Assembly: GCA_003151935.1 (NCBI GenBank)
Contig: PLYZ01000073.1
Location: forward strand, 312 to 38,419
Direction of reading: 5' to 3'
Source: Candidatus Dormiibacterota bacterium
Lineage (GTDB): Bacteria; Chloroflexota; Dormibacteria; Dormibacterales; Dormibacteraceae
DNA: 38,108 bases
A model generated the notes under the pieces. That model was not told the DNA's origin and searched no databases. It was given only the letters and a program-made list of their open reading frames with translations. This document shows positions 1 through 31,983 of this stretch, piece after piece; position 1 is the stretch's first letter; each line of letters begins with the position of its first letter. The position numbers were made by a program, and so were the translations under genes.

Positions 1-227
1 TCAAGCTGGCTTGCTGGATCACCAAGCGTGCCTCGACGCTCCCGGACTCTGCGATCCCAACTGAGCGGGTGCGGCTCGGGAGCCACGCGGGGGGTGAGGT
101 AACTGACGCCGGTGACGGCCTGCTCCGCCGGTTCGCGGACACGATCTTTGTCCGGCCGCAGGACAAGCTGAAGCTCTATTGGCTGTTCCAGCGCTCCGCC
201 TGGCAGCCGGCGAGGAGGGTCGCCTGA
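1..227 (+). CDS. C-terminal part of an unrecognised protein (cut by window start)
   Basis: An open frame enters from the left edge with its first complete codon at 3 and ends with TGA at 225-227. The 74 visible residues end in FADTIFVRPQDKLKLYWLFQ and then a short basic tail, a hydrophobic/charged pattern typical of a folded domain. The stop overlaps the next start codon as TGATG, which argues that both frames are translated as one operon. I recognise no family. It sits inside the presumed integrated element, so it may be a cargo or replication/transfer gene, but the sequence does not show which. Confidence 0.5.
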   Translation, partial: KLACWITKRASTLPDSAIPTERVRLGSHAGGEVTDAGDGLLRRFADTIFVRPQDKLKLYWLFQRSAWQPARRVA

Positions 228-592
228 TGTACCGACGGGTCAACCCGACCAGCGAGCGACGCATGCCGCTGCGGATGCTCTACCAACCGCTCGGCGACGG
301 GTCGTTCCACCGAGCCTGTGAGGCCGACTCGTTCCGCGGGTTGGTCGCCGCCCTGCTCGACGACCCGGACTACGAGCGCGCGGACGTCGCTGACCGTCTC
401 ATGCATCGCCTTCGCCTGGCGGACGACGTGCGGCTGCTGTTCGCGGTCGGTGATCGGACGATCAATGTGGCCGATCGGGAGGGCGCCGACACGATCAACG
501 TCGCCTCCGACGAGCCGCTGATCCGATCTCTAGACCGCCTCGGCTTCCTGTCACTGGCTCCCTCGACGGAAGAGGGTGATCCGCTGGCATGA
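227..592 (+). CDS. Hypothetical protein, 121 aa, element-borne
   Basis: ATG at 227 follows a GAGGAGG ribosome site at 212-218 with good spacing, and the start overlaps the upstream stop, so it is preferred to a TTG at 179. The product is an acidic, mostly helical-looking soluble protein. Near the middle it contains two near-copies of a TINVA-D segment (DRTINVADREGAD, then TINVASDE). No signal peptide or membrane segment is visible. I do not recognise a family. Its position beside a serine recombinase makes an accessory role in the element possible, for example a directionality factor, but this is only positional inference. Confidence 0.5.
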   Translation: MYRRVNPTSERRMPLRMLYQPLGDGSFHRACEADSFRGLVAALLDDPDYERADVADRLMHRLRLADDVRLLFAVGDRTINVADREGADTINVASDEPLIRSLDRLGFLSLAPSTEEGDPLA

Positions 593-717
593 GGTGCCGG
601 CCGGACAGCCAAGCCGCTAGAGCCCCCATCACCGCGCATGCGCATGCGCGCGAGATCACGGCGTCAGCCCAAAAGAGGCTGCCTGGCGGGCTCGGCCTGC
701 ATCCAGATGACGAGCAC

Positions 718-978
718 GTGAACGCGCCGCAGTCGTCGAACCGCCGCCGACAAGCGGCGGAGCGGCCAGTCTTCACGCGGGAGCAAGTCCACGACCTCGT
801 GGTCCGCTCACGAAAGGCTCAGGACCTGCCTTTGACGATCACCGACGCTTCTGTACTGGACCTTGTGGCCCGGATCTTCGGGCCCCCTAGGCCCGCCAAA
901 CGGGTCGGAGTCGTTCGGGATCTGGCTTGCGGCCACCCCGGTGAGGATGAATTTCGACCCTCTCGATTAGCGTCCTGA
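718..978 (+). CDS. Small hypothetical protein convergent with the recombinase gene
   Basis: The frame runs from GTG at 718 (an in-frame ATG at 589 overlaps the previous stop as ATGA and is the alternative start) to the stop at 976-978. The middle part reads like a genuine helical domain: FTREQVHDLVVRSRKAQ, then SVLDLVARIFGPP. Its last 92 bases overlap the 3' end of the recombinase gene on the other strand, so the C-terminal 30 residues may be unimportant. It has no recognisable family. Small helical proteins near serine integrases sometimes control direction of recombination; nothing in the sequence proves that here. Confidence 0.4.
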   Translation: MNAPQSSNRRRQAAERPVFTREQVHDLVVRSRKAQDLPLTITDASVLDLVARIFGPPRPAKRVGVVRDLACGHPGEDEFRPSRLAS

Positions 979-2311
979 TCACCGCTCGCCGCCGCAGTAT
1001 CGGCAGCTCCGACCAATCCTCGACCAAGTCATCCGAGCTGACCACCTCCAGCATGGCGACCGCGCCTCTCCGGGCGGCCTCCATGGCCCGCTCCGCCGCC
1101 TCAAGGCGGCCCTCCAGGCCACGCCTTGCCTCCACCCATTCCACCATCGTGAAGGTCCCCGCGCCGTATTGAGTCGCGAGCTCCTGCATCTGCGCCTTGA
1201 CTCTCGTCAGCTCGTCAATCGCGCCTTGCGCGTCCGGCTCAGTTCCGACGAGTCGACGGCGCCTCTCCGCGAAATCCGGACTCGAGAGCATCTCCAAGAC
1301 GGCCTGTTCCACCAGGGTGTCCGCCTGCGGAACGGGCATGTGGACCTTGCCGCAACCGGGGTACCCGGTGGACTTCTTGCACCCGTAGTAGGCGAACGGA
1401 CGCCCGGCGAACGCGGGTCGACCGTACATCGGCGAGCCGCACAGCCCACACCGCAGCAGGCCCCCGGTGAGCAGGTAGGTCCGCGGCGTGCGACGCGCCC
1501 GAGTATTGCGGCTCGGATCGGTCAGGATGGCCCGCAGCCGATTCCATTCGTCCTCCGGGAAGATCGATTCCCAGACCGCGCGACCGACAATGGTTCGGTC
1601 CTTTCGGGCGTATAGGCCCACCATGCGCGGCGATATCAGCAGGCTGCGAATGCCGGTCGGGCCCATTGGCCGGCCGCGACTCCCTCGCACGCCGCGGCGA
1701 TCGAAATCCATGGCGATCGCGCGCACCGACTCTCCCGACAGGATTCGATCCTTCGCCTCGCGCAGCAGTTCAACCTCTTCGGGTACCTCGGTCACGCCGT
1801 CCGGCTGCCATCCGAAGGGCCGAGTACCACCCTTCCATCGTCCGGCCGACGCGATCTCCGCCATCTTGGAGCGGATGCGCTCTGATTTGTGCTCCGACTC
1901 GTAGGCCGCAGTCGCGCCGACGATCCGGGCCACCATTCGACCGGACGGGGTCGACAGGTCAAGCGTTCCAGCCTTGACGGTCGCGATTTCCACCCCTGCC
2001 TCTTCGACGACGGCGATGAACTCCTCGAGCTCAGCCGGACGACGATGCATGCGATCGGGGTGCCAGACGATCAAGCGTCGCCACTGGCCAGCCCGGATGT
2101 CATCCAGGAGCTGCTGATAAGCCCGCCGGACGACGGTCCGCCTGAAGGCCGACCGGTCGTCGTCTTCGTAGACGCGGTCTACGACCCACCCGAGATGATC
2201 CGCCAGCCCACGACATTCCTTCTCCTGCCGCTGGACTCCCAGGCGCTGCAGATCGGGGTCGTCGGAGATCCGAACGTAGATTGCCGCCGGGCCGCTGGTG
2301 AAAACCCCCAC
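887..2311 (-). CDS. Large serine recombinase (resolvase/invertase family integrase)
   Basis: A 474-residue site-specific recombinase. The N-terminal resolvase domain (about residues 9-150) has the YVRIS motif with presumed nucleophile Ser16, followed by the conserved VWHPDRMHR stretch near 82-90, equivalent to the usual D-R-L-x-R segment. A recombinase DNA-binding domain follows (about 165-270). A zinc-ribbon has cysteines at 288, 291, 311 and 320, and a C-terminal coiled-coil-like region lies at about 345-420. Length and order match phage-type large serine integrases. The start is GTG at 2311, with an AAAGGTG element 14 bases upstream. Only about 32 bases separate it from the cpaF junction, so it may be transcribed from the interrupted pilus operon. 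It probably integrated the element into cpaF. Confidence 0.93.
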   Translation of the reverse strand: MGVFTSGPAAIYVRISDDPDLQRLGVQRQEKECRGLADHLGWVVDRVYEDDDRSAFRRTVVRRAYQQLLDDIRAGQWRRLIVWHPDRMHRRPAELEEFIAVVEEAGVEIATVKAGTLDLSTPSGRMVARIVGATAAYESEHKSERIRSKMAEIASAGRWKGGTRPFGWQPDGVTEVPEEVELLREAKDRILSGESVRAIAMDFDRRGVRGSRGRPMGPTGIRSLLISPRMVGLYARKDRTIVGRAVWESIFPEDEWNRLRAILTDPSRNTRARRTPRTYLLTGGLLRCGLCGSPMYGRPAFAGRPFAYYGCKKSTGYPGCGKVHMPVPQADTLVEQAVLEMLSSPDFAERRRRLVGTEPDAQGAIDELTRVKAQMQELATQYGAGTFTMVEWVEARRGLEGRLEAAERAMEAARRGAVAMLEVVSSDDLVEDWSELPILRRRAVIRTLIERVEIHPHRGGRKPDPERLRPVWRA

Positions 2312-3228
2312 CGAGTGCGATTGTACACCTTTAGATATACTGCATGCCCTGTGTTCATTGCGTCGAGGAGATCGAGGGCCTCGCCGCCGCGGACCTCGCC
2401 GATGATGATTCGATCGGGGGACATTCTCAGCGCCTCGTGGACCAGCATCTGGATCGTGATGGCACCACGTCCCTCCGTGTTGGACGGCCGCCCCTCCAGC
2501 GCGATGCAGTCGGGCAGCTCACGCCAGAGATGCAGCTCGGCCTGGTCTTCGATCGTGACCACACGCTCGTCGGAAGCGATGAGGCGGGCCAGCACGCGCA
2601 TGAAGGTCGTCTTTCCGGCGCCTGCACCGCCCGAGACAAGGATGTTCAAACGAGCGGCGACTGATGCCTCGAGGAACTCGATCAGCGCACCGGGCAAGAA
2701 GCCGGCCGTGGCCAGCGCCGCTAGGTCGGCAAATCGGGCCGGTGGATGCTTTCGGATGGTCACGCTCATCGGTCGGGCAGGTGGCGACAGCGCGGCATGG
2801 AGCCGGCTGCCTTCTGGAAGGGTCATCGTCACCATTGGGCTCGCACGGTCCAGCCGGGCGCTGGGCGTGCCATCCGTGTACCAGTGGACCAGCTCGATCA
2901 ATGCGTCTTCGTCGTCGAATGGAGGGGCGACAGCCTGGCGCCTCCCTGCCCTGAAGACGAAGCATGCTTCCGTGCCGTTGATCCGCACCTCCTCGACGTC
3001 CGGGTCGGCCAGGTGCTCCGCGAGCGGCCCGAGCGGCGTCACCGACGCGAAGATCCGCCGCCAGATTTCCTGCGCCTGCGCGCCGTCGAGACCGGGCTCC
3101 TCGCCCACGACGCGGCCGACGAGCTGGTAGATCCAACCCTGGTCTTCGACACGCAGACGGGTGCGATCGCGGCGCGCCAGCTCCGCCGCCAGCTCAGCTT
3201 CGACGCGTGCACGGATGCTCTCTTCCAT
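2179..3228 (-). pseudogene. cpaF: cpaF/tadA pilus ATPase, 5' part, interrupted by element
   Basis: CpaF/TadA is the hexameric secretion ATPase that powers Tad/Flp pilus assembly at the inner face of the membrane. With ATG at 3228 the frame gives a normal family sequence for 295 residues: Walker A GGAGAGKTT (200-208), Asp box TIEDQAEL (225-232) and Walker B RIIIGEVRGGE (273-283), then MNTGH (291-295). The usual continuation, with the His box and C-terminal third, is absent. Instead 54 unrelated residues are read from the element before a stop at 2179, overlapping the recombinase start. The truncated product lacks segments needed for ATP hydrolysis, so it is probably inactive unless the element excises. 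It lies 49 bases downstream of the cpaB-like gene. Confidence 0.88.
2335..2350. other. Attachment-site junction between cpaF and the integrated element
   Basis: On the minus strand cpaF codes M-N-T-G-H with the His codon at 2346-2344, then the expected H-(D/E/P)-G-S continuation is lost. The element side begins at about 2343 with GCAGTATATCTAAAGGTG. Serine integrases cut at a 2-base core inside a short shared sequence; the candidate shared stretch is GGGCATGC (2342-2349). The exact core cannot be fixed from one junction. Confidence 0.6.
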
Positions 3229-3277
3229 TGAGGGTCCGCTCGCTGCGCTCACGGCTGGGAGCCGGCTCCCGTTGCGT

Positions 3278-3895
3278 TCACGGCTCCGCGGCCACCGCCA
3301 TCGCCTGCTCCGGGGTCGAGATTGCACCTTCCGCACCGCTTGCGTCCCCTGCGCTTGCGATCACCGCGGTCACTTGCATTGCAACGGCCGCGTAGACGAA
3401 CGCCGGCGCCTGCTTCGACGACACGACGACCACAAGGCCGCCTGCGACGGACGACTGGACCTCGACGTTGAGCGCGAACGGCGACACGGACAGGTGATCG
3501 GGTGAGCCGGCAACGACGAGCAGGTCGACCCTGGATCCCACGGCCGCGGGCGGTGCGTCCTTGACCGGCATGAACACGAGACGGCGATCGGCCAGCGCGT
3601 CCTGGCCCGTGGTGTCCGAGCGCTGGATGAGCTGGCCGGCCGCCAGGTCGTGCGTCGCGCGCATGCCCGCGAGCCGCCTCGCATCGGCGCTTTTGAACAC
3701 CAACGGTGGAAGGCCGGCGGCGTTCAGTCGCACCAGCACCACCGATTCCGAGGTGAGCGAGGAGCCTGCAGGAATGTCACGAGCGGCTGCATACACGTCG
3801 ATGGCGTTGCGGTCCGGGTTTGCGAACACCAAAAGCGCCGCGCTCACGCCAACACCCAGGCCCAAAGCAAGCAGAGCGGTCATCCAGCGCCTCAT
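3278..3895 (-). CDS. cpaB: SAF-domain pilus assembly protein, CpaB/RcpC-like
   Basis: A 205-residue protein with one N-terminal membrane helix (about residues 5-23, ALLALGLGVGVSAALLVFA). A SAF domain follows, showing the family pattern VYAAARDIPAGSSLTSESV and later AGMRATHDLAAGQLIQRSD. A Flp pilus CpaB-like region comes next (PVKDAPPAAVGSRVDLLVV). CpaB/RcpC proteins act in the periplasm or cell envelope in Tad pilus biogenesis. It is shorter than the usual 250-300 residues. The start is ATG at 3895; a GTG directly in front is an alternative. It is immediately upstream of the interrupted cpaF, so the two form the start of a pilus operon whose remainder is not in the window. Confidence 0.8.
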   Translation of the reverse strand: MRRWMTALLALGLGVGVSAALLVFANPDRNAIDVYAAARDIPAGSSLTSESVVLVRLNAAGLPPLVFKSADARRLAGMRATHDLAAGQLIQRSDTTGQDALADRRLVFMPVKDAPPAAVGSRVDLLVVAGSPDHLSVSPFALNVEVQSSVAGGLVVVVSSKQAPAFVYAAVAMQVTAVIASAGDASGAEGAISTPEQAMAVAAEP

Positions 3896-13196: not shown

Positions 13197-15251
13197 GTGG
13201 AAGAACTAAAAGAATTCGCTCTCGATCTGCTCTGGACCTGGCAGCCCCGCATCGAAAATCTATTCCGCACTCTCGACCCCGAGCTGTGGGAATCGACCCG
13301 GCAGAACCCCATCCTGCTGCTCAGCCAGCTCGGCGAGGCGGGAGTGGCCCGCGCGTGCGAGCGCGCGGATGTGCAAACGGCACTCGCCTCGGCGCGCACC
13401 GCCCGCAGCGAATACTACGACCAGAAGCCTCGCTTCATGGACGCGAAGGCCCCGCTGGTCGTGGCGTACTTCTCGCTGGAGTTCGGCCTCGCCGAATGCC
13501 TGCCGATCTACTCGGGAGGCCTCGGCGTCCTGGCGGGCGACCACCTGAAGGCGACCAGCGACCTCGGACTGCCGCTGGTCGCGGTCGGTCTTCTCTACAA
13601 GCAGGGCTTTGGGCGTCAGGAGATCGACGCCGCCGGCCGCCAGGTCGAGGTGTACTCGGAGAGCCGCGGCGGCGACCTGCCAATACGTCGTGTCGAGGGT
13701 GTCGAGGTCGAAGCGCCGATCGGAACGCGCAGCGTGCGGATCGGGGTGTGGCGCGCACAGGTCGGTCGCGTGCCGCTCTTCCTGCTCGACACCGACCTCG
13801 AGGCGAACCCGCCGGACCTCCGCGCGATCACCGACCGCCTGTATGTCCCAGAGCCCGACCGGCGCTTGCGCCAGGAGATCGTGCTGGGGATCGGCGGAGT
13901 CCGGGCGCTGCGTGCGATGAACCTCACGGCGGGCGTGTTCCACCTGAACGAAGGCCACAGCTTTCTCTGCGCCCTGGAGCGAATCCGCGAGCTGCGGGCA
14001 TCGCGACAGATGACGCTCGAGGAGGCGAGGCTCGTCGCGCGCGCCGGAATCGTCTTCACCACGCACACGCCGATCGCCGCGGGAAGCGACTATTTCGACT
14101 CGGGCCTCGTGTGGGATCTGTTGGGCCCTTACCTGACTCAGGTCGGCATCTCGTTCGACCGCTTCATGGATCTCGGACGGCAGCGTCCGGGCGATCCGCG
14201 AGAGCGCCTGTGCACGACCTACGCCGCGCTGCGGCTCGCCGACCAGTCGGTGGGCGTGAGCCGCCTGCACGGGGCGGTCTCGCGGCGTTTGTGGAAGGAC
14301 GCTTGGCGCGGCCTGCCCGAAACGCAGGTGCCGATCGCCTCGGTGACGAACGGCGTTCACATGCCGACGTGGATCGCGCCGGAGATCGCCGACCTCCTCC
14401 GCCGCTACGTTGGACCCGACTGGTGGGACCTCGACGGCCGGGACGGCCGCTGGCAGGCGGTGATGGAGATACCCGCGCCGGTCCTGTGGGCGACCCATCT
14501 CGACTTGAAGCGCCGGCTGATCGAGTTCACCAAGAAGCGCTCGGAGAAGCCTGCGCAGCTCGACCCCGACGCCCTGACCTTCGGGTTCGCCCGGCGCTTC
14601 GCGCCCTACAAGCGCGCCAACCTCCTGCTCCAGGACGTCACGCGGCTGACCGCCCTGCTGAACAGCTCGAAACGGCCGGTGCAGCTGCTGTTCGCGGGCA
14701 AGTCACACCCGGCAGACCAGCCTGGTAAGGAGATCGTGGCGCGCATCGTCGCGTTCGCCCGAGAGGAGCCTCGGGTCGTCTTCCTCAAGGACTACGACAT
14801 CGAGCTCGCCCGCCACCTGGTGCACGGCGCCGACGTGTGGCTCAACAACCCGCGGCGCTTCCTGGAGGCAAGCGGCACGAGCGGCATGAAGGCGGGGGCC
14901 AACGGCGCCCTCAACGTGAGCATCCTCGACGGGTGGTGGGATGAGGCCTACCGCCCGGAGCTGGGCTGGGCGATCCCATCGGCTGCGACCCTGGAGCGCC
15001 CGGAGATCGACGATCGCGCCGAGGCGGAAGGGCTTTACCGCCTGCTCGAGCGTGAGGTCGTGCCGGCGTTTTACGACCGGGACAAGGACGGAATCCCGGT
15101 GCGGTGGGTCGAGATGATGCGGGCGTCGATCCGCCACACGGCCACGGGGTTTGCCGCGCGCCGGATGGTGATCGACTACTTCGACCTGGCCTATGCGCCA
15201 GGCGCGCGCCGGGTGGAGCAGCTGCGACTTCTCCCTGACTGGGGCGGGTAA
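13197..15251 (+). CDS. glgP: Alpha-glucan (maltodextrin/glycogen) phosphorylase
   Basis: A 684-residue GT35 enzyme that releases glucose-1-phosphate from alpha-1,4-glucans using pyridoxal phosphate. Conserved features are YFSLEFGLAECLPIYSGGLG near the start, HLNEGHS, TTHTPIAAGSD, NGVHMPTW and FARRFAPYKRA. The PLP site is EASGTSGMKAGANGALN, with presumed PLP-Lys565. It belongs to the shorter bacterial alpha-glucan phosphorylase branch. The start is GTG 13197, because family homology (ALDLLWTWQP) begins within ten residues of it; AGGT lies 6 bases upstream. It is divergent from the nucleotidyltransferase fusion with only 23 bases between start codons, and converges on the GH57-glycogen synthase gene. 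Confidence 0.93.
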   Translation: MEELKEFALDLLWTWQPRIENLFRTLDPELWESTRQNPILLLSQLGEAGVARACERADVQTALASARTARSEYYDQKPRFMDAKAPLVVAYFSLEFGLAECLPIYSGGLGVLAGDHLKATSDLGLPLVAVGLLYKQGFGRQEIDAAGRQVEVYSESRGGDLPIRRVEGVEVEAPIGTRSVRIGVWRAQVGRVPLFLLDTDLEANPPDLRAITDRLYVPEPDRRLRQEIVLGIGGVRALRAMNLTAGVFHLNEGHSFLCALERIRELRASRQMTLEEARLVARAGIVFTTHTPIAAGSDYFDSGLVWDLLGPYLTQVGISFDRFMDLGRQRPGDPRERLCTTYAALRLADQSVGVSRLHGAVSRRLWKDAWRGLPETQVPIASVTNGVHMPTWIAPEIADLLRRYVGPDWWDLDGRDGRWQAVMEIPAPVLWATHLDLKRRLIEFTKKRSEKPAQLDPDALTFGFARRFAPYKRANLLLQDVTRLTALLNSSKRPVQLLFAGKSHPADQPGKEIVARIVAFAREEPRVVFLKDYDIELARHLVHGADVWLNNPRRFLEASGTSGMKAGANGALNVSILDGWWDEAYRPELGWAIPSAATLERPEIDDRAEAEGLYRLLEREVVPAFYDRDKDGIPVRWVEMMRASIRHTATGFAARRMVIDYFDLAYAPGARRVEQLRLLPDWGG

Positions 15252-15334: not shown

Positions 15335-18300
15335 TTAGTCCGCTACTGCTGCCACGCCCCGGCGCTCGCGCCTTGCGGTGATCGCCGAGAGGTAGAGCTG
15401 CACGTACCGGTGGGCTGAGCGCGACCACGACACGTCCTCGGTCATGTCCCGCCGTACGAGCCACGACCACGGTGCCGGATGTCGAAAGGTCTCGGCCGCA
15501 CGCACGACCGCGGCGTAGAACTGCCAGGGATCGTAGGCGTCGAACGTGAACCCGTTGCCCGTGGCCGCGACCGGGTCGTAGTCCCTGATCGTGTCCGCCA
15601 GGCCGCCTGTCTCCCGCACCACCGGAACGGTCCCGTACCGCAACGCGATCAGCTGCGCCAGGCCGCACGGCTCGAAGCGCGACGGCATCCACAGCATGTC
15701 GGCCCCGGCATAGGTTCGCTGGGCGAGGGCCGCGTCGAATCCGATCGACGCCGAGACCTGGTGTGGAGCCTCGCCCGCCCACCGGCGGAACATGTCTTCG
15801 TAACGCCGGTCGCCCGTGCCGATCACCACCACCTGCAGGCCGAGGTGGAGTAGGTGCGGCATCGCCTGCTCCACCAGGTCGATGCCTTTGACGTCGTAGA
15901 ACCTGGACACGATCGCGCATACGGGCTTGTTCACGTCGTCCAGCCCCAGCTCGGCGCGAAGCTCGGCGCGGCACAGAGCCTTGGCCTCGGGAGCGTCCGC
16001 CGAATACTGGTGTTTGAGGTTGGGGTCCTTCTGTGGATCGAAGATCTCGTAGTCGATGCCGTTGACCACGCCGTGGAGCTTGTGCGCGTTGCGGCGAAGC
16101 AGCTCGTCCAGCCCCTCGCCGTACTGCGGCGTCTGGATCTCCGACGCGTACCGCTCGCTGACGGTGTTGACCACGTCGGCGAAATGGATGCCGCGGCCCA
16201 ACACGTTGACCACGTTGTCCAGCCCAGGAATCCCAACCTGGATCAGACCCCATTCCTCGAGGCCGGCCAGCATCAGGGCGCCAAATCCGAAGGTGCCCTG
16301 AGCGGCGAGGTTGTGGATGGTGAGGTTCGTCGCGATCTCGGAGTAGGGGCCCGCCGAATACACGCGGTCCAGCAGGTTCGCTACGAGGGCGGCAAACCAG
16401 TCATGCACGTGGATGACGTCGGGGAAAAACTCCAGCGCGGGCAGCATCTCGAGCAGCGCCCGCGAGAAGAAAACCGAACGCGCGTCGTCGTCACCGAAAC
16501 CCACCATCCCGTCGCGGTCGTACAGGGCCGGGCAATCGACGAAATACACGATCACGTCGCCGAGGCGGCCTTCGTAGATCGTCGCTTCTATCTTCTGAGC
16601 CCCGAGCGGGACCTGTAGACCCGTCACGATCGGGCGCAGGCTGTGCTTGGCGATGTCAATCTGCCGGTATCGGGGCAGCACGACCCTGACGTCGTGGCCG
16701 GCATGGCGCAGCTCCTTCGAGAGGGCGGCCGCCACGTCGGCCACGCCCCCGAGCTTGGCGAAGGGCGCCAGCTCGGCCGTGGCCACGAGGACCTTGAGAT
16801 GCTGGGAGTGAGGAACGCCGGCGGCGGGCGCCTCGCCCGGCACACGGACGCCGAGCGAGCCGGCCGGCGGCACGACCTCGATGTCCTTCCCGTCGCGCGT
16901 CACGACGAGCGCCATCTCGAGCGTGTCACCCGCCCTCTTGCCGAGCCGCTGGAATGGAATCGCGACGAAGAACGGATCCGGGACCTCCCATGCGGTCTCG
17001 ACCACCCCGCGGTTTTGGGGCTCGACGATTCTCGCCACGGTGACGGAGCCGCCGAGCGCGCGCGGAACGATACGGACGGCGTACGCCGGCTCGAAGCCCA
17101 GGTCCGCCGTGGCGGCTTCCGCGAGCGGAAGGTCGATGTCCGCCGCCGCCCCGTCTCCTGCCGGCTTGCCCGAGCAGTAGAGCCAGAAATCGATGTGCTG
17201 AGCCTCCAGCTCGGCGGGCGAGCGCGGCGTGTCGATCCGGAAGTAGAGCTGCTCGTCGTCGTTGCCGTAAGCGACGCGCTCGACGATCCCTGCGGGGCGA
17301 TGCAGAGCGCCGAAGCCCGAGCCCACCAGGTAGTAGCCCGCCTTACTCCACTCAGGGTCGTCATACGAGGCAGGGCTGATGGCCACCGCGGGGATACCAC
17401 TCTCCGGCGCAGGCGCGCGCTTGATGATCGGCTGGAACAGGCGTGCGGGCGCCCGTGAGCCCATGAGCTTGTAGACGTTGCGCAGGTGCAGCCGGAACTG
17501 GTTGTCCCAGATCGGGTCCATCCCCGAGTCGTGCTTTCGGCTGAACCACCAGAACCAGTCGCTTCCCTCGGTGATGAGGATCTCCCGCCAGGCCAGCGCC
17601 GCCTGATCCGATTCTTTCGGCCGCTGGCGCGCCTGGTCGTCGAGCCAGGCGCGGGTTTCGGCGAGCAGGTCCCAGGCGACGTTGTGCTCGGGGTCACCGA
17701 TCCAGGTGTCCAGGCTGGCGCCGATCCAGCTGCCGGTGTGCAGGTGGTGCAGCTGCTGCTCGGGCGGATGCTCAGCGATGAAGTCGGTGACCGTGGTGGT
17801 CACGACGTCCTGGCTCGATTCGAGCTCGGTGTAGAGAGCGTTGAGGAAGTCATGACCGTCTCGCGGGTAGAACTCCCATGCGTTCTCGCCGTCGAGGGCG
17901 ATCACGACGAGGAGGTTGCGGTCGCTCTGCTGCTCGCCGATTAGCTTCAGGCGACCAACGAGGGCGCGCGCCGCGTCGAGCGAGGACATCCGCTGATAGT
18001 CGAAGCCGATCGCATTCGAGATCTGCGAGTCGCGGAAGACCATGGTCACGCTCTGGCCGTCCCGGGTCACATGCTTGGGGCTGTACAGGTCCTCTTCCCG
18101 CGAATAGCGACTCTCCATCGAGCGGGCGAGAACCTCTTCGTCGCTGATCATCCAGTCCAGCCCCGCGCTCGCGGCCAGCCCGACGACGGTCTCCCCCACC
18201 GCCATCTCAGAAGGCCACATTCCCTTCGGCCTGCGCCCCAGCAGTCGCTCGAAGAGCGCGAACCCGAGGCTGATCTGGCGCTCGGCATCCTCGCGATGTG

Positions 18301-18997
18301 AGAAGTGGTGCTCGGGAAGCTGGATCTGCGGGTTGGCGATGCGGGCCGAATCGACGTGGGATAGCAGCGGGAGGATCGGGTGGTAGTACGGCGAGAACGT
18401 GAGCTCGGCCTGGCCGCGATCCGCAAGCTCGCGGTACTTGGGGATGACCTTCGCCATCAGGTCGAGCTGGGCCGTGAAGAGCGGCTGCTTGTCGGCTTCC
18501 GAGAAGTCGCGATCCTTGCGCTTCAGCTCAGCCAGGCGCGGGTCTGACTCGACCCAGACCGGGTCACACCACGCGAGGTTGAACCAGATCTGCAGGTCGC
18601 GAATGTCGGCCATGGTGAACTGCGCGTCGACGGGCCGGGAGGCGAGCTCGAGATAGCGGGGCGACTGCTGGACGCGGAGCGCTCGTGGCGACTCACGCAT
18701 CCAGCGCAGAAGGAAGTCGCGCTCCTCGGCGGAGAGCTCGTTGGCTTGACGCCGGCTCAGGTTGAGGAAGAGGTCGACAGACTCCTCTTTCCCATAGTCC
18801 TCGATCTGCGCCAGCAGCGAAGGGACGAGGTTGAACGTGGCGCGAAGCTTGGGATAGCCGTCGAGCAGGGCCGGCATCTTGTAGTAGTCCTTCGCCGAGC
18901 GGAGCCGGACCCACGGCAGGAGATAAGTGCTGGTGAGGTCGTCCTTGTAGTAGGGCTGGTGCATGTGCCAAACGAAGGCGACGTGTATGGGTTTCAT
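15335..18997 (-). CDS. GH57 glycoside hydrolase fused to GT5 glycogen synthase
   Basis: A 1220-residue bifunctional protein. Residues 1 to about 420 are a GH57 alpha-glucan hydrolase or transferase: WHMHQPYY start motif, nucleophile Glu264 in GMWPSEMAVGE and acid/base Asp369 in ALDGENAWE. Residues about 430-720 hold a helical segment and a beta-sandwich-like region. From about 734 a GT5 glycogen synthase begins with KVLVATAELAPFAKLGGVAD, the ADP-glucose-binding KxGG motif, and continues through HVHDWFAAL, VNGIDYEIFDP, VSRFYDVKGIDL and MPSRFEPCGLAQLIAL to the end. It therefore probably elongates and trims, branches or debranches the same alpha-glucan. The start ATG lies three bases after the stop of a 56-residue ORF. 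It is the last gene of the operon that begins at 24289. Confidence 0.93.
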   Translation of the reverse strand: MKPIHVAFVWHMHQPYYKDDLTSTYLLPWVRLRSAKDYYKMPALLDGYPKLRATFNLVPSLLAQIEDYGKEESVDLFLNLSRRQANELSAEERDFLLRWMRESPRALRVQQSPRYLELASRPVDAQFTMADIRDLQIWFNLAWCDPVWVESDPRLAELKRKDRDFSEADKQPLFTAQLDLMAKVIPKYRELADRGQAELTFSPYYHPILPLLSHVDSARIANPQIQLPEHHFSHREDAERQISLGFALFERLLGRRPKGMWPSEMAVGETVVGLAASAGLDWMISDEEVLARSMESRYSREEDLYSPKHVTRDGQSVTMVFRDSQISNAIGFDYQRMSSLDAARALVGRLKLIGEQQSDRNLLVVIALDGENAWEFYPRDGHDFLNALYTELESSQDVVTTTVTDFIAEHPPEQQLHHLHTGSWIGASLDTWIGDPEHNVAWDLLAETRAWLDDQARQRPKESDQAALAWREILITEGSDWFWWFSRKHDSGMDPIWDNQFRLHLRNVYKLMGSRAPARLFQPIIKRAPAPESGIPAVAISPASYDDPEWSKAGYYLVGSGFGALHRPAGIVERVAYGNDDEQLYFRIDTPRSPAELEAQHIDFWLYCSGKPAGDGAAADIDLPLAEAATADLGFEPAYAVRIVPRALGGSVTVARIVEPQNRGVVETAWEVPDPFFVAIPFQRLGKRAGDTLEMALVVTRDGKDIEVVPPAGSLGVRVPGEAPAAGVPHSQHLKVLVATAELAPFAKLGGVADVAAALSKELRHAGHDVRVVLPRYRQIDIAKHSLRPIVTGLQVPLGAQKIEATIYEGRLGDVIVYFVDCPALYDRDGMVGFGDDDARSVFFSRALLEMLPALEFFPDVIHVHDWFAALVANLLDRVYSAGPYSEIATNLTIHNLAAQGTFGFGALMLAGLEEWGLIQVGIPGLDNVVNVLGRGIHFADVVNTVSERYASEIQTPQYGEGLDELLRRNAHKLHGVVNGIDYEIFDPQKDPNLKHQYSADAPEAKALCRAELRAELGLDDVNKPVCAIVSRFYDVKGIDLVEQAMPHLLHLGLQVVVIGTGDRRYEDMFRRWAGEAPHQVSASIGFDAALAQRTYAGADMLWMPSRFEPCGLAQLIALRYGTVPVVRETGGLADTIRDYDPVAATGNGFTFDAYDPWQFYAAVVRAAETFRHPAPWSWLVRRDMTEDVSWSRSAHRYVQLYLSAITARRERRGVAAVAD

Positions 18998-25997: not shown

Positions 25998-26747
25998 ATG
26001 CAGGAAGCACTCAACATTGCGATCAACTCGATTCGGGTCCGTTTCGGCAGCGAGGCGCTGACGAGGGCGGCGGAGCTTCCGCCCCCGCAGCCCTGGCCAA
26101 GCCGGACTCCGATCGACCGCCTGACCGGGATCGGGGGACTGCCTCACGGCCGGCTCACCCTTTTGAGCGGGCACGGAACGTGCGGCAAGCTCACGCTCGC
26201 TCTTCTACTGCTGGCCAGCGCGACTCGCGAGTTCGCGCACGCGATGGTGATCGAGACCAGTGCGAATTTCGATCCCTGGACGCTGCTTCCCTTCTATCCC
26301 GAGCTGAGCGCGCTGACCGTGGTCCGCGCGCCGGCTCCTGATCCGGCTGGAGAAGCCGCGGTGGCACTGGCCAGGGCTGGAGCCGGCTTCATCCTATTAA
26401 TGGGCGAGATCCCTGAGCACTGGTTGGGACCCCTGGAGTCAGGGGCCAGCCGTTCGGGAACCGTGATCGTGGGAGTGGTCGACGCGCCCGGGCGGGCGTT
26501 CGCGCACGCCTCGAGCTTGAGCGTTGGTTTTTCGCGCACGGATTGGATCTGGGAACGCGGGCAGCTCGTGGGGCTTCGCGCCTCGGCTCGGTGCGTTAAA
26601 AACCGCGTCGCCCCTCCGCTTGGAGAAACCGAGCTGGAGATCCGCTACCCGCTGGGCACGAAGGCGCTGTCCGACCACCGTGGCCAGGTGTCTGAAATTC
26701 CTTCGATTCGCGTGGAAGGGCTCGAATGCACGTCTGCTGTGGTCTGA
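25998..26747 (+). CDS. imuA: ImuA-like RecA-fold protein of the translesion mutasome
   Basis: A 249-residue RecA-related protein. Residues 38-70 (PIDRLTGIGGLPHGRLTLLS, then GHGTCGKLTLALLLL) correspond to the RecA nucleotide-binding region, with a slightly altered P-loop (GHGTCGKLT, 58-66). In ImuA/ImuA' systems this protein partners ImuB and DnaE2 in error-prone replication past DNA damage. It is the first gene behind the SOS promoter and overlaps imuB by 22 bases. ATG 25998 has GAGGCGG upstream at eight bases. Confidence 0.85.
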   Translation: MQEALNIAINSIRVRFGSEALTRAAELPPPQPWPSRTPIDRLTGIGGLPHGRLTLLSGHGTCGKLTLALLLLASATREFAHAMVIETSANFDPWTLLPFYPELSALTVVRAPAPDPAGEAAVALARAGAGFILLMGEIPEHWLGPLESGASRSGTVIVGVVDAPGRAFAHASSLSVGFSRTDWIWERGQLVGLRASARCVKNRVAPPLGETELEIRYPLGTKALSDHRGQVSEIPSIRVEGLECTSAVV

Positions 26748-27931
26748 CCAACCACCTGGAGCTCGCCCGGCGGCCGGACCTGTACGGGAATCCCGTCGTG
26801 GTCGGACATCCAGGGGGCAGGGGGGAGTCCCCCATCAATAAATTCGAGCACGTGATCGCTGTTTCCGAAGAGGCAGCTCCGTTTGGCGTGGCGCCGGGGA
26901 TGGCATTGCGCCAGGCGGAGCATCTCTGCCCGCAAGCGAACTTCCTTCCCCCTGACCCTGAAGCGGCCGCGCGCCTGCGAGAGCTCATCTCTTCCGCGCT
27001 CTACGACCTCGCGCCGGCGGTCGAGGTCCATGTCGAAGGGATCGCGTGGCTGGACGTGAGCGGCGTCGTGAAGGGAGGCGCGATAAGTGAGGCACGGCGC
27101 AGGCTGCGTGCCGCCATCGGCCGTGAACCGAGGCTGGGTCTTGCGCCAGGCCCTTTCTCAGCCCGGCTTGCCGCCGCACGCGCGCGACCTGGACGTCTGG
27201 TGCGTGTCGATGAGGCTCGCGCATTTCTCGCTCCGCTTTCATCTCACGAGCTCCCGCTCGACGCGGAGCAGCTCGAGCGCCTGGACCTCCTGGGTCTTCG
27301 CACACTTGGCGCGGTGGCGGCGATCGGTCCACGCGAGCTGGAGAGCCAGCTCGGCCACGACGGACGTCATGCGGTCATGCTCGCGCGAGGTCTCGAGCCC
27401 GACCAGCTCACGCCTTGGCGTCCTCCTCTTTTCACCAGCGCGCATCGACAGTTCGAGGAGCCGGTCGAAGACCGCGAGGCCCTGCTGTTCGTCGCCCGCG
27501 CGCTGTGCGGCGACCTGGCACAGGAGCTCGGCCTGCGCGGGGCGGGCGCCAAGCGCATTCGTGTGCGGCTGATGTTCGAGTCCGCCGGGCGCGCGCAGGG
27601 CGCACTTCTATTAGAAACTGAGCAGCGCGAGACCGTCGTGCGGCATCCGCTGAGCAGCGCGGCGGAGCTGTTCGGCTTGATCGGCTCTTGGGTCAAGGAA
27701 TGGCAGCCGCGCGCTCCGATCACCGAGCTGTGGATCGAGCTGCCGGTGCTCGAGGGCGCCGGGCGGCGGCAGCTGCGGCTGTGGGCGGGCGGGGATGGAA
27801 ACAGCGAAGAGGTGATCGCCGCCCTCGAGCGGTTGCAGGAACGGTGGCAAGACCAATTTGGAGCCGAGGTGGTCCACAAGCCACGCCCAGCGCTGCTCTC
27901 CTCCCCACTCCCATCGCAGCGCTTCGCGTGA
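26726..27931 (+). CDS. imuB: ImuB-like Y-family polymerase paralogue
   Basis: A 401-residue Y-family protein. The N-terminal palm/fingers region begins MHVCCGLTNHLELARRPDLY, and GVAPGMALRQAEHLCP is the usual finger segment. The palm motif normally SIDE-x-x-LD appears as VHVEGIAWLDVSG, and the HhH region contains LDLLGLRTLGAVAAIGPREL. The acidic active-site residues of true Y-polymerases are not all kept, as is normal for ImuB, which serves as a non-catalytic hub linking DnaE2, ImuA' and the sliding clamp. No obvious clamp-binding motif was recognised by eye. It overlaps imuA and the DUF6504 gene, so the three are co-translated. Confidence 0.9.
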   Translation: MHVCCGLTNHLELARRPDLYGNPVVVGHPGGRGESPINKFEHVIAVSEEAAPFGVAPGMALRQAEHLCPQANFLPPDPEAAARLRELISSALYDLAPAVEVHVEGIAWLDVSGVVKGGAISEARRRLRAAIGREPRLGLAPGPFSARLAAARARPGRLVRVDEARAFLAPLSSHELPLDAEQLERLDLLGLRTLGAVAAIGPRELESQLGHDGRHAVMLARGLEPDQLTPWRPPLFTSAHRQFEEPVEDREALLFVARALCGDLAQELGLRGAGAKRIRVRLMFESAGRAQGALLLETEQRETVVRHPLSSAAELFGLIGSWVKEWQPRAPITELWIELPVLEGAGRRQLRLWAGGDGNSEEVIAALERLQERWQDQFGAEVVHKPRPALLSSPLPSQRFA

Positions 27932-28176
27932 CCCGGCTGCTCTCGCCTCCCGCCGCGATCGAGGTCACGCTGGCCGGCGACGGCACGCCGGCCTTCATCA
28001 CCGGCGCCTTCAGCGGGTCGATCGACCCGATCGCGCGCTGGAAGGTCGAAACCGAGTGGTGGAAGCAGCCCGTCGTCCGCGAGTACTGGAAGGCGCTGCT
28101 CAACAGCAACCTTCTTTGCGAGCTGTACCACGACCTTTCGCGAGACGAATGGTTCCTGGAGCGGGTCTATGACTGA
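27928..28176 (+). CDS. DUF6504-like protein, ImuB-associated
   Basis: An 82-residue protein starting at GTG 27928 with a GTGA overlap with the imuB stop. The pattern VTRLLSPPAAIEV, VETEWWKQPVVREYWKALL and DEWFLERVYD matches the small DUF6504 protein that commonly follows imuB in actinobacteria-like genomes. In those genomes it is sometimes fused to ImuB. Its role is unknown, but linkage and coupling imply it is part of the SOS mutasome. It is the last gene of the imuA operon; a convergent gene ends four bases later. Confidence 0.8.
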   Translation: MTRLLSPPAAIEVTLAGDGTPAFITGAFSGSIDPIARWKVETEWWKQPVVREYWKALLNSNLLCELYHDLSRDEWFLERVYD

Positions 28177-28180
28177 GAGG

Positions 28181-28381
28181 TCAGAAGGGCAGCGCGACCA
28201 CGTCCGGCTCTCTCCACCCCATTCTTGCATCGGTGCCGAACATCGCGTCCCGGCTCCAGTGCCGCAGCGGAGTGTTCTTGTTGAGCAGCAGCGGGTAGGC
28301 GGCGAGGAACTCTTCAAAGCTCGCGATCTCCGGCCGGTCGGACACTGCGTGCGCGACCAGCCGCACCCAGAACCTGGTCAT
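28181..28381 (-). CDS. Conserved-looking small protein, 66 aa
   Basis: ATG 28381 to the stop at 28181, convergent with the DUF6504 gene. The sequence (MTRFWVRLVAHAVSDRPEIA, then FEEFLAAYPLLLNKNTPL and DAMFGTDARMGWREPDVVAL) has the balanced composition of a real folded protein and is unlike shadow frames here, but I recognise no family. The ribosome site is weak. It sits between the two halves of the SOS mutasome, which may be coincidence. Confidence 0.55.
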   Translation of the reverse strand: MTRFWVRLVAHAVSDRPEIASFEEFLAAYPLLLNKNTPLRHWSRDAMFGTDARMGWREPDVVALPF

Positions 28382-28767
28382 GGTGTCGTGATAGAGCGGT
28401 CCTTAGCTGTTGTGTTCGGCAAACCTCTGGATGCCAGCGGTCACGACTTCCTCCGCCGCGCCGGCGCCATGACGCCGGACGGCAAGCCACGCGAGCGTAG
28501 GTGGTCGCGGCGCCTGAACTCCGAGGGGGGCAAGCTCACGCTGAAGAAGCGCGCAGAAACTCATCGTTGGGAGTCATGGCTTGAAGGGCCTCCTCAGAAA
28601 AAGAAATGACCCCGCCGGCTCGCTTCGCTGGCTCCGGCGCCTGCCTTGCGGCTGGTGCCAGATCCCTCGCACGTTTCCTTCGGGGCCGTTGGAAAACGTA
28701 ACGCGCCCACCGAGAGCTTGCAATCCCTGATTTGGGTCGCCTGGCAACGCGAGGTAGCCGCATCCGC
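28382..28767. other. Mostly non-coding gap between small gene and dnaE2
   Basis: The gap is 386 bases. A basic 65-codon frame from GTG 28412 to 28609 (containing GAMTPDGKPRERRWSRRL) is open but has no ribosome site, so it is not called as a gene. No LexA box (GAAC-N4-GTTC) is seen here, although dnaE2 follows. No other structure was recognised. Confidence 0.4.
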
Positions 28768-31700
28768 GTGAACCCATACGTTGAGCTGCATTGCCACTCC
28801 AACTTCTCGTTCCTCGACGGCGGATCTCACCCTTATGAGCTGGCCGCCCGCGCTGCCGAGCTCGAGATGCCCGCGCTTGCGATCACCGACCGCGGCGGCG
28901 TCTACGGGGCGGTGCGATTTCTCCAGGCCTGCCGCAAGCTGGGCGTGAAGCCGATCATCGGCACGGCCCTGGAGGTGGACGGCCAGGAGGTCGTCATGAT
29001 CGCCCGCAACCTCAGCGGGTACTCGAACCTCTGCCGGCTGCTGAGCTTCGCGCACGCCGACCAGCCCAAGGGCGAAGCACGCGCGAGCATCGCCAAGGTC
29101 GCCGAGCATCGCGGGGATCTCTTCTATCTCAGCGCGACCGACGACGAGAGGCGGTTGCGCGAACTGCAGGAGGCGCTTGGCAAGGAGAACGTCTTCAGCG
29201 AGCTGCACCATCACCTGTGCCCAGAGGACCAGTGGGTGCTCGAGGGCCGCGCGGCGATGGCGAAACGCTGCGGAGCCGCGGTGGTGGCGACGAACGAGGT
29301 GCACTACCACGTCCCTGAACGGCGAAGGCTGCATGACGTGCTGGTGGCGATCCGCCATCGCGCCACCCTCGAGTCAGCCCGCCCACACCTCTTTCCCAAC
29401 TCCGAGCACCACCTGAAGGGTGGTGCGGATATGAGGCCGCTCTTCAAGGGCCATGCCGAGGCGCTGGCCACACCGTGGGACATCGCGCGGGAATGCGACG
29501 TGGACCTCGACTTTCGCAAGGTGCGCTTTCCAGGCTATCCCGTGCCCGCGGGCGAAACGCCCTTCTCCTTTCTCTACAAGCTCTGCTTCGAAGGCGTCCG
29601 CGAGCGCTACCGCCCGATCACACCCGAGGTCGCACGCCGCCTGCAGCGCGAGCTCGACGTGATCGAGAAGACCCGCCTCGCCGAGTTCTTCCTCATCAAC
29701 TGGGACCTGATGCGGTTCGCGCGCGAGCATGGAGTTCCGGGCCAGGGTCGCGGCTCGGCCGCCGACTCGATCGTCGCCTACGTGCTCGGAATCACGCGGG
29801 TCGACCCCATCGAGCACAACCTGCTCTTCGAGCGCTTCCTGCACGAAGAGATGACCAGCACGCCGGACATAGACATCGACTTCTCGACCGCGCATCGCGA
29901 GCAGGTGATCCAGTACATCTATGACAAGTACGGCTGGGAGCGCACCGGGATGGTTTGCAACGTCGTGACCTTCCAGCCGCGGATGGCGATCCGCCAGGTG
30001 GGCAAGGCGCTCGGCTTTTCGGCCGAGCTGCTCGACCGGCTGGCCAAGGGCGTGGACCGATGGTTCACGGAGGACGTCGCGGACTCGATGCTGGACGCGG
30101 TGCCGCCTCCTGACATGCGGCCTCAGAGCTGGCAGCAGTTCCTGGAGCTGTGCAGGGAGGTGATCGAGTTTCCACGGCACCTGTCGATACACAACGGCGG
30201 CATGCTGGTCACCGGCGAGCCGCTGGTCGAGATCGTGCCGGTCGAGCCCGCGACCATGGAGGGCCGGCGCGTCGTCCAGTTCAACAAGGACGACGTCGAG
30301 GACCTTGGGCTGATCAAGATGGACATGCTCGGCCTCCGCACGCTTTCAGTGGTGGCGGAGTGCCTCGAGCTGATCAAAGACAAAACCGGCACGCGACCCG
30401 ACCTCGACCAGCTGGCGCTGAACGACCCGAAGGTCTTCGAGATGTGCAGCGCCGCGGACACGATCGGCGTTTTCCAGATCGAGTCGCGGGCGCAGATGCA
30501 GACTCTCCCGCGCACACGCCCGGACACCTTCAACGACCTCGTGGTCGAGGTGGCGATCATCCGGCCGGGCCCGATCCAGGGGAACGCGGTCCACCCATAC
30601 ATTCGACGCAAGCAGGGCCGCGAGATGGTCACGTACGCGCACCCGCTGCTCGAACCCATCCTCAAGGACACACTGGGCGTGATCCTCTATCAGGAACAGA
30701 TCATCGAGATCGCGATGCACGTCGCAGGCATGACGCCAAGCGGTGCAGACGGCTTCCGGCGCGCAATGACCCGCCACCTCAACCGTGTCGAGATGTCATC
30801 GCTCGAGGGTGATTTCATCAACGGGTGCTTGGCCAACGAGGTGCCTCGTGAGGTCGCGGACCAGCTCTTTGCCGCAGTGCAGGGTTTTGCGGTTTACGGA
30901 TTCTGCCGCTCCCACGCGGCCGCATTCGCGCGCACTTCATACGAAACCGCGTGGCTCAAGCTCAATCATGCGGTCGAGTTCGGGTGCGGCCTGCTCAACA
31001 ACCAACCGATGGGCTTCTACCACCCGAGCGTGCTGGTCGAGGACCTGAAGCGCCACGGGGTGACCGTGCTTCCGGTCGACGTCAACCGCTCCGCCGTTCG
31101 ATGCCTCCCCGAACCTCTGCCCCCCACTCAGCAGAACCGAGACCTCCCGCTGGGGCCCTCCCTTCTGTCCGACTCCCTCCCCCAGCCGGCACTCCTGCCC
31201 ACAAGCTATTCCGAGCTCGAAACCAAGTCAACCCAGCCTGTTAAGACCATGACCCACGCCATGCGCGTCGGCTTCAACTACGTCCGCGACCTCGGCGAAG
31301 AGGGCCGTAAGGCGATCGTCGACGAGCGTACCCAACGCCCCTACACCTCCTTCGACGATTTTCTCCACCGGCTTCGCGGCGCCCCGGTCGGACCGCGCGC
31401 GGTTCGCAACCTCGTCATGGTCGGCGCCTTCGACGCGCTCGGCCAACCACGACGCGAGCTGCTCTGGGGCTGGCAGGAAAGGTGGCATGGCCACGGGCTG
31501 CGCAAAGGCATCGAGACGCAATCCGAGCTGCGCCTCAACGGCACCGCACCCGACCTTCCCACCATCGACGCCTTCGACGCCAACCAGCTCGAGTACCGGA
31601 TCTCGGATCTCTCGACCGGCCACCACCTCATCCACTTCTGTCGCGAGCGCCTGCAGCAGATGGGAGCGCTGGAGAGCAACAAGCTGGCCGCAATCGCCAA

Positions 31701-31983
31701 TAACCGGAAAGTGAGAGTCGCCGGCCTTGTCATCACTCGACAGGCTCCCTCGACCGCGAAGAAGATCCGCTTCTTCACGCTGGAGGACGAGTTCGGCCAG
31801 GTCAACGTGACCATCAAGCCCGACGTCTACGACCGCTACCGCCAGGTTGCCAACCGCCAGCCGATCCTGGTCATCGACGGAGTGATGCAGCGCAACGACG
31901 GCGTGTATTCGGTGCTGGCCAGCCACATCGAGGCCCTCCAGGGCGTGCCCCGCCCGCCCCAGAAATCGCACGACTACCGATAA
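28768..31983 (+). CDS. dnaE2: Error-prone DNA polymerase III alpha subunit DnaE2
   Basis: A 1071-residue C-family polymerase, DnaE2/ImuC type by length and neighbourhood. The N-terminal PHP domain begins YVELHCHSNFSFLDGGSHP. The polymerase catalytic Asp residues are in PDIDIDFS (367, 369, 371) and IKMDMLGL (519). The fingers and HhH regions follow, and near the C-terminus is an OB fold (KVRVAGLVITRQAPSTAKKI). With ImuA and ImuB it performs damage-induced translesion synthesis. GTG 28768 is chosen because homology starts at once; TTG 28732 would add 12 residues. Residues about 778-828 hold a proline- and serine-rich insertion between the fingers region and the HhH domain, absent from typical members. 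Confidence 0.93.
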   Translation: MNPYVELHCHSNFSFLDGGSHPYELAARAAELEMPALAITDRGGVYGAVRFLQACRKLGVKPIIGTALEVDGQEVVMIARNLSGYSNLCRLLSFAHADQPKGEARASIAKVAEHRGDLFYLSATDDERRLRELQEALGKENVFSELHHHLCPEDQWVLEGRAAMAKRCGAAVVATNEVHYHVPERRRLHDVLVAIRHRATLESARPHLFPNSEHHLKGGADMRPLFKGHAEALATPWDIARECDVDLDFRKVRFPGYPVPAGETPFSFLYKLCFEGVRERYRPITPEVARRLQRELDVIEKTRLAEFFLINWDLMRFAREHGVPGQGRGSAADSIVAYVLGITRVDPIEHNLLFERFLHEEMTSTPDIDIDFSTAHREQVIQYIYDKYGWERTGMVCNVVTFQPRMAIRQVGKALGFSAELLDRLAKGVDRWFTEDVADSMLDAVPPPDMRPQSWQQFLELCREVIEFPRHLSIHNGGMLVTGEPLVEIVPVEPATMEGRRVVQFNKDDVEDLGLIKMDMLGLRTLSVVAECLELIKDKTGTRPDLDQLALNDPKVFEMCSAADTIGVFQIESRAQMQTLPRTRPDTFNDLVVEVAIIRPGPIQGNAVHPYIRRKQGREMVTYAHPLLEPILKDTLGVILYQEQIIEIAMHVAGMTPSGADGFRRAMTRHLNRVEMSSLEGDFINGCLANEVPREVADQLFAAVQGFAVYGFCRSHAAAFARTSYETAWLKLNHAVEFGCGLLNNQPMGFYHPSVLVEDLKRHGVTVLPVDVNRSAVRCLPEPLPPTQQNRDLPLGPSLLSDSLPQPALLPTSYSELETKSTQPVKTMTHAMRVGFNYVRDLGEEGRKAIVDERTQRPYTSFDDFLHRLRGAPVGPRAVRNLVMVGAFDALGQPRRELLWGWQERWHGHGLRKGIETQSELRLNGTAPDLPTIDAFDANQLEYRISDLSTGHHLIHFCRERLQQMGALESNKLAAIANNRKVRVAGLVITRQAPSTAKKIRFFTLEDEFGQVNVTIKPDVYDRYRQVANRQPILVIDGVMQRNDGVYSVLASHIEALQGVPRPPQKSHDYR

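Follow-up and report, generated by a model that had tools for sequence, protein, structure and literature searches.

The pilus ATPase gene cpaF of one Tad locus in a soil bacterium (Candidatus Dormiibacterota) was found to be split at a 9-bp core by an element that opens with a large serine integrase gene and closes with a half-site repeated in series at the boundaries of small gene cassettes. The structure is probably a cassette array that is driven by a serine integrase and has its integrase head in cpaF, formed by excision between attL and P-core-B' sites and re-integration at B-core-B' sites. The window, i.e., the whole stretch of DNA analysed, consisted of 38,108 nt (GCA_003151935.1, contig PLYZ01000073.1, positions 312–38,419, forward strand) and belonged to a MAG (G000); of the contigs of this MAG named below, C54 is that of the window, and C88, C13, and C24 are others. 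The features at the break were as follows.

1..886, no strand assigned: left-end cargo of the element, reaching the scaffold gap at C54:308–311
887..2311, minus strand: large serine integrase P0001 (474 aa), on the same strand as cpaF, with its start 33 bp into the element
2179..3336, minus strand: chimeric ORF, cpaF read-through into the element; not a gene, its last 54 residues being element DNA
2323..2344, minus strand: P' half-site TGCAGTATATCTAAAGGTGTAC, the first DNA of the element; the P half-site at attR has its outer 9 bp in inverted form
2344–2352, minus strand: crossover core ACAGGGCAT, repeated at C88:11173–11181, the start of the cpaF 3' half
2344..3228, minus strand: cpaF/tadA 5' part, codons 1–295, including Walker A, Walker B, and MNTGH
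2351..2367, minus strand: B half-site CTCGACGCAATGAACAC, sharing 2 bp with the 9-bp core; cassette boundaries outside cpaF carry a matching half
3278..3895, minus strand: CpaB-like gene (SAF domain), which lies on the upstream side of cpaF in this interrupted Tad locus

The split cpaF gene and its integrase

The cpaF gene reads from the ATG at 3228 to ...LDAMNTGH and is then continued by element DNA, the foreign tail stopping at 2179. This agreed with the original prediction, made from the letters of the window, that cpaF is intact through Walker B and MNTGH and then runs into a serine recombinase element; of the two boundaries given there, 3228 is the likely start of cpaF and 2179 proved to be the end of the chimeric ORF within the element. 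The 5' part matched the T2SSE domain (E = 1.1e-30) and obtained 203 bits from this half alone against its best NCBIfam model, TIGR03819 (TadA family). The other half of the gene, which the prediction had placed to the left, could be identified by a T2SSE domain search of the same genome at C88:11173–11583, where it opens with the core ACAGGGCAT, reads in frame as HPGSICTLHADSPRETL, and is followed by a tadB-like gene and TadE-like genes. Lack of any 3' part, one of the two outcomes named as refuting the prediction, is thereby excluded. Both halves share this core, as anticipated for site-specific insertion at a conserved stretch of cpaF; the direct repeat was foreseen as GGGCATG, and the actual repeat was ACAGGGCAT. 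When the halves were joined in silico on the 9-bp core, an uninterrupted ORF of 428 aa from the ATG was obtained, to residues 1–295 of which the 5' part corresponds with 100% identity. The expected relatives with intact cpaF could also be found, the site being spanned by a full-length, unbroken gene in 10 other genomes of the family (71–88% identity). G029, of the same genus, has intact cpaF and no P0001-type integrase, and most relatives are without the P0001 element.

The cut gene loses the His-box region of cpaF, and the insertion is predicted from sequence to inactivate cpaF of one Tad locus while the array occupies the site. The expected shut-off of Tad/Flp pili holds in this restricted form: the genome keeps three other genes with the TadA family as best NCBIfam model, each under the strict cut-off, so that only this Tad locus would be disabled.

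Pfam analysis of P0001 revealed Resolvase (1.2e-29), Zn_ribbon_recom (6.7e-9), and Recombinase (5.9e-8) domains, and the protein could be aligned with the solved integrase 9iu2 over 396 residues, including the catalytic region and the zinc-ribbon cysteines. By this domain set and the att geometry, P0001 is a large serine recombinase (serine integrase) with predicted activity. CcrA and CcrB models scored far below cut-off; a partner gene may lie in the middle of the element, which is missing from the assembly. No match to P0001 was obtained in viral contigs. Phage structural or replication genes were not recognised among the sampled genes of C88:1–11172 and C54:1–2655, the middle of the element again being missing.

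A second insertion was revealed in G028 (record PNAG01000005.1, Candidatus Dormiibacterota from palsa), a MAG of the same genus, in which an integrase 98% identical to P0001 occupies the same cpaF site. In G028, another contig opens at base 1 with the core, exactly where the cpaF 3' half starts. Between the two genomes, host DNA on the left side of the core was 82–90% identical (approximately 13% divergence), whereas element DNA right of the core was 98–99% identical for 2.1 kb and 94–95% thereafter, the change from host to element level falling exactly at the core. The element being more alike than its host flanks, it must have moved horizontally into, or between, these species.

The same comparison bears on whether the junction is an assembly or binning artefact, with chimeric contigs fused at a repeat. 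The assemblies are indeed fragmented MAGs. C54 and C88 showed no overlap, and what lies between them in the cpaF array, its middle, is missing; a scaffold gap (NNNN) lies at C54:308–311, just left of the window. Contigs do end at the sites described below, as in G034, where a contig end is no more than 130 bp away from 3 of the 13 sites (p about 0.001). Such ends would be expected with variable neighbours in the population, but they could owe something to short repeats or binning. However, the same cpaF junction occurs in two MAGs whose host DNA differs by approximately 13%, and the 3' half starts at the core in both. A one-off misassembly, the other outcome named as refuting, is thereby ruled out, and an artefact of either kind is very improbable. 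As a side observation, the G028 contig ends almost where the C54 gap falls, so that both assemblies break within the element; the place equivalent to 1..886 of the window holds a partial amidoligase-like gene in G028.

The elements of comK prophages, skin, and fdxN/XisF are known for regulated excision, and XisF is the excision recombinase of a developmental element. A regulatory interruption of this type, with conditional excision switching on Tad pili, was considered. Precise in-frame restoration of cpaF would be possible, the integrase gene is co-directional and just downstream of the cpaF 5' half, and the closest NCBIfam relative of P0001 is XisF, but at 92.6 bits against a cut-off of 375. 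Against it, no condition, regulator, or excised form was seen, the array holds unrelated cargo and several sites, the genome has other TadA-like genes, and most relatives do without the element; the explanation is judged quite improbable. Of the original prediction, the site-specific insertion of a serine-recombinase element at a conserved stretch of cpaF is supported, but a regulatory switch like comK prophages or skin, although possible, found no support. As the other contigs revealed, the element is also more than a single insertion, its right end being one of dozens of half-sites that bound gene cassettes.

Half-sites and cassette arrays

The right end of the element, beside the cpaF 3' half, is a P half-site, GAGTCC-GTACACCTTAAGGAAATAC-AGGGCA (general form GTACACCTTAAGGAAATAC-NGGGCA), the outer 9 bp of which reappear, exactly inverted, at the end of the left-end P' half-site. 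The element is integrated at a short core, with attL and attR each made of distinct P and B half-sites. Serine integrases show longer P halves and shorter B halves (PMC3783163), as do these sites. Dyad symmetry of the whole reconstructed attP was not significant (12/23, matched by 6.5% of shuffles).

The 19-bp P arm (up to 3 mismatches) was detected in 7 of the 42 genomes from the order, with a reversed-pattern control near 0; G028 had 18 copies, G034 had 10, and G030 had 8. A 25-bp form was present in 7 of the 110 class genomes and in 6 of a sample of 400 from the phylum, and the P pattern was not found in viral contigs. The copies form same-orientation series with a spacing of 0.15–13 kb. 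The P' half-site occurs once per genome, solely in G000 and G028, beside P0001.

A total of 59 sites could be classified by the left half into P (41), T2, which is ATGCACTTATAGCGAATAC (10), and B, which is CTCGAYGCGATGAAYAC (8); the sites were gathered by these left-half motifs, and other boundary types would escape collection. Two of the eight B sites are the cpaF attL sites, and the other six, with the cpaF-type attB half, lie in or beside arrays. Among 26 dissimilar P sites a conserved block extends from about -25, with a sharp onset, to the core NGGGCA. On the right side, the conserved positions are chiefly +3 (C), +5 (G), and +14/+15 (T-G), which are common to the cpaF B' side; site information is confined to about -25 to +16. 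Half-sites of P and B type are combined as a mosaic at these boundaries, the same two types that meet at cpaF. Within arrays, B-type sites tend to come before P or T2 sites.

Genes on the array contigs were called with our own codon-usage script. Although 52–69% of these contigs is coding, none of the 47 testable sites falls within a predicted gene. Genes in the segments between sites share the strand in 60 cases and take the opposite strand in 38. The cassettes comprise small complete gene groups (a GntR-ABC transporter, a sigma factor, a two-component system, an FKBP isomerase), one of them carries the candidate defence protein PDC-S39, and the smallest are 147 bp long. Left and right halves assort freely: left class 1 is joined to nine different right classes, and several left classes occur ahead of right class 7. 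The same cassettes occur in permuted order, b-c in G028:C11 versus c-b in G030:C32, cassette b recurring in G034:C140 and G030:C10. A 1.7-kb cassette is shared at 95.6% identity between G028:C29 (21456–23147) and G034:C80 (88708–87019) with different left flanks. Some cassettes of G028 and G030 are 100% identical, for which misbinned contigs could partly account. From such comparisons we infer that the cassettes are mobile.

Alternatively, cpaF may hold an ordinary serine-integrase island or defective prophage, the other P-like repeats being remnants of independent insertions without shuffling. The attL and attR at cpaF are canonical for such an element, these genomes hold other large serine recombinases, and one such gene directly adjoins a G030 array. 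Independent insertions, however, would leave P' arms or integrases of their own, and P' arms were found solely by P0001; the same-orientation series, the free assortment of left and right halves, and the permuted order of the same cassettes also speak against it. This explanation is considered unlikely, and a cassette array remains the preferred reading.

Several further features of the arrays were recorded. The recombinase gene in G030 (G030:C32:72152–73684) encodes a different large serine recombinase, 94% identical to the G000:C24 copy in another genus. It was tried as the integrase of the adjoining array and rejected as a different recombinase, being approximately 25% identical to P0001; its homology to the G000:C24 copy ends 18 bp before the P arm, so that it looks like cargo or a neighbour. 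In G000, an inverted P half-site on the minus strand (C88:9925–9949, L008), 1.2 kb from the cpaF attR, flanks an FKBP-type isomerase gene; it is the sole inverted site seen within an array and perhaps reflects inversion by the integrase. A second small array in the same genome has one B-type and two T2-type sites (C13:2467, 8006, and 9252; L145, L142). Several cassette starts contain GGTTCGAGTCC...CCA and so resemble the 3' end of a tRNA gene with no complete tRNA (e.g., G034:C53:4478 and G028:C15:12986); such tRNA-like right halves were seen in G028, G030, and G034, and some left flanks include the reverse complement of a tRNA T-arm. As tRNA genes these right halves were rejected, ARAGORN giving only two in the array loci, so that most are fragments; an Rfam search returned one tRNA and nothing else. 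No comparable repeat series was present near distant relatives of the integrase in G236, G243, G328, G409, G044, G026, and G205.

Proposed route of cassette movement

Canonical serine-integrase chemistry would account for the half-site geometry as follows. At cpaF, the observed arrangement is an attB of the integrase split by integration into attL (in the window: cpaF B half, core, P' half, integrase gene) and attR (on C88: P half, core, cpaF B' half). Together with a directionality factor, the integrase may recombine attL (B-P') with any downstream P-core-B' site. The excised circle would then carry P-P', the integrase gene, and the cassettes passed over, leaving a B-core-B' scar. The integrase alone would re-insert the circle (P-core-P') at any B-core-B' site, whether in cpaF or at the start of an array, and repeated rounds could move and shuffle cassettes. 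The position of B-type sites ahead of P and T2 sites is as expected of scars at array starts. Under this scheme, the restoration of cpaF by excision, as originally proposed, would be exact and in frame if both ends recombine, that is, if attL meets the terminal attR, but would fail at an internal site.

Some points count against the cassette-array model. It offers no account of how unrelated DNA segments gained P half-sites, and G030 and G034 have many P sites, yet their incomplete assemblies yielded no close homologue of P0001; the weak symmetry of attP and the inverted site at C88:9925 were also counted against it. The integrase-less arrays of G030 and G034 may be like integrase-less integron arrays, or they may reflect assembly gaps.

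It is quite possible, though short of probable, that the system is a "serine integron", a platform for cassette capture and shuffling with one large serine integrase, hybrid P/B half-site boundaries, and the MNTGH codons as attB. A B-B' scar would then mark the start of integrase-free arrays, and cassettes would be sampled by the integrase head (P') via different downstream sites. If so, cassette acquisition would be mechanically coupled to a Tad-type pilus ATPase gene.

Relation to described systems

The textbook example of a dedicated system for gene-cassette capture is the integron, with its tyrosine integrase and folded sites. The cpaF system resembles integrons in having an integrase-proximal site, many same-orientation sites, and arrays of small cassettes with conserved ends, some of them integrase-free. 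A true integron (IntI with attC cassettes) lying near a serine integrase by chance would share these traits, but no integron integrase exceeded the cut-off in six genomes (TIGR02249 at best 53.8 versus 265 bits), the boundary consensus is without the attC core GTTRRRY/RYYYAAC (a consensus comparison, on which the absence of folded attC sites also rests), and the half-sites match those of the serine integrase at cpaF; a coincidence of this kind is scarcely credible. Like comK prophages, skin, and fdxN/XisF elements, the insertion interrupts a coding gene precisely and has a large serine recombinase at one end; unlike these single elements, it is a cassette array.

Among described systems, tandem serine-recombinase islands come nearest, and the cpaF system is best read as a variant of the serine-recombinase accretion island with integron-like anatomy. 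The ssrA islands of Dehalococcoides carry a large serine recombinase (DsiB) and a second, small one (DsiA), and consist of tandem modules between 20-bp direct repeats, many without integration genes, for which accretion has been proposed; they target the tmRNA gene in its 3' part, and the repeats are copies of the target at one locus (PMC3146451). SCCmec and the Enterococcus cassette chromosome (ECC) use large serine recombinases (paired CcrAB), target the 3' region of rlmH, and have att sites of about 50 bp; some islands have several attR, and ECC has fewer than 5 att-site matches per genome (PMC6222049). The cpaF system shares with both a large serine recombinase and tandem modules bounded by att repeats. 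It is set apart by its target, by having many small cassettes and several array loci, by the half-site mosaic, and by shuffling across genera. Whereas rlmH or ssrA is the target in those systems, here it is cpaF, and no CcrA/CcrB pair scored over the cut-off outside the missing middle of the element. In contrast to the ssrA islands, a protein gene is entered in its interior, P and B half-sites form mosaics at the boundaries, and several contigs in several genera carry arrays; compared with SCC/ECC, a genome can have as many as 18 P-type sites, and the smallest cassettes measure 147 bp. No report of a serine-integrase cassette array was found in the literature searched, an absence which is no proof of novelty.

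If the system evolved independently, the cassette-array strategy arose more than once. If the model is true, it provides a natural set of interchangeable serine-integrase half-sites, which could serve in DNA assembly, and gives Dormibacterota, a little-cultivated soil group, a concrete means of exchanging genes. The system makes testable the idea that serine-integrase islands grow by one attL recombining with any of several attR.

Elsewhere in the window, translations suggested a probable ImuA/ImuB/DnaE2 translesion mutagenesis cluster at 25998–31983 on the plus strand (RecA-like protein, Y-family polymerase, second DnaE). On the minus strand, a 1220-aa ORF at 15335–18997 resembles a GH57-type glycosidase fused to a glycogen synthase, and a glucan phosphorylase-like gene adjoins it at 13197–15251, both likewise judged from their translations.
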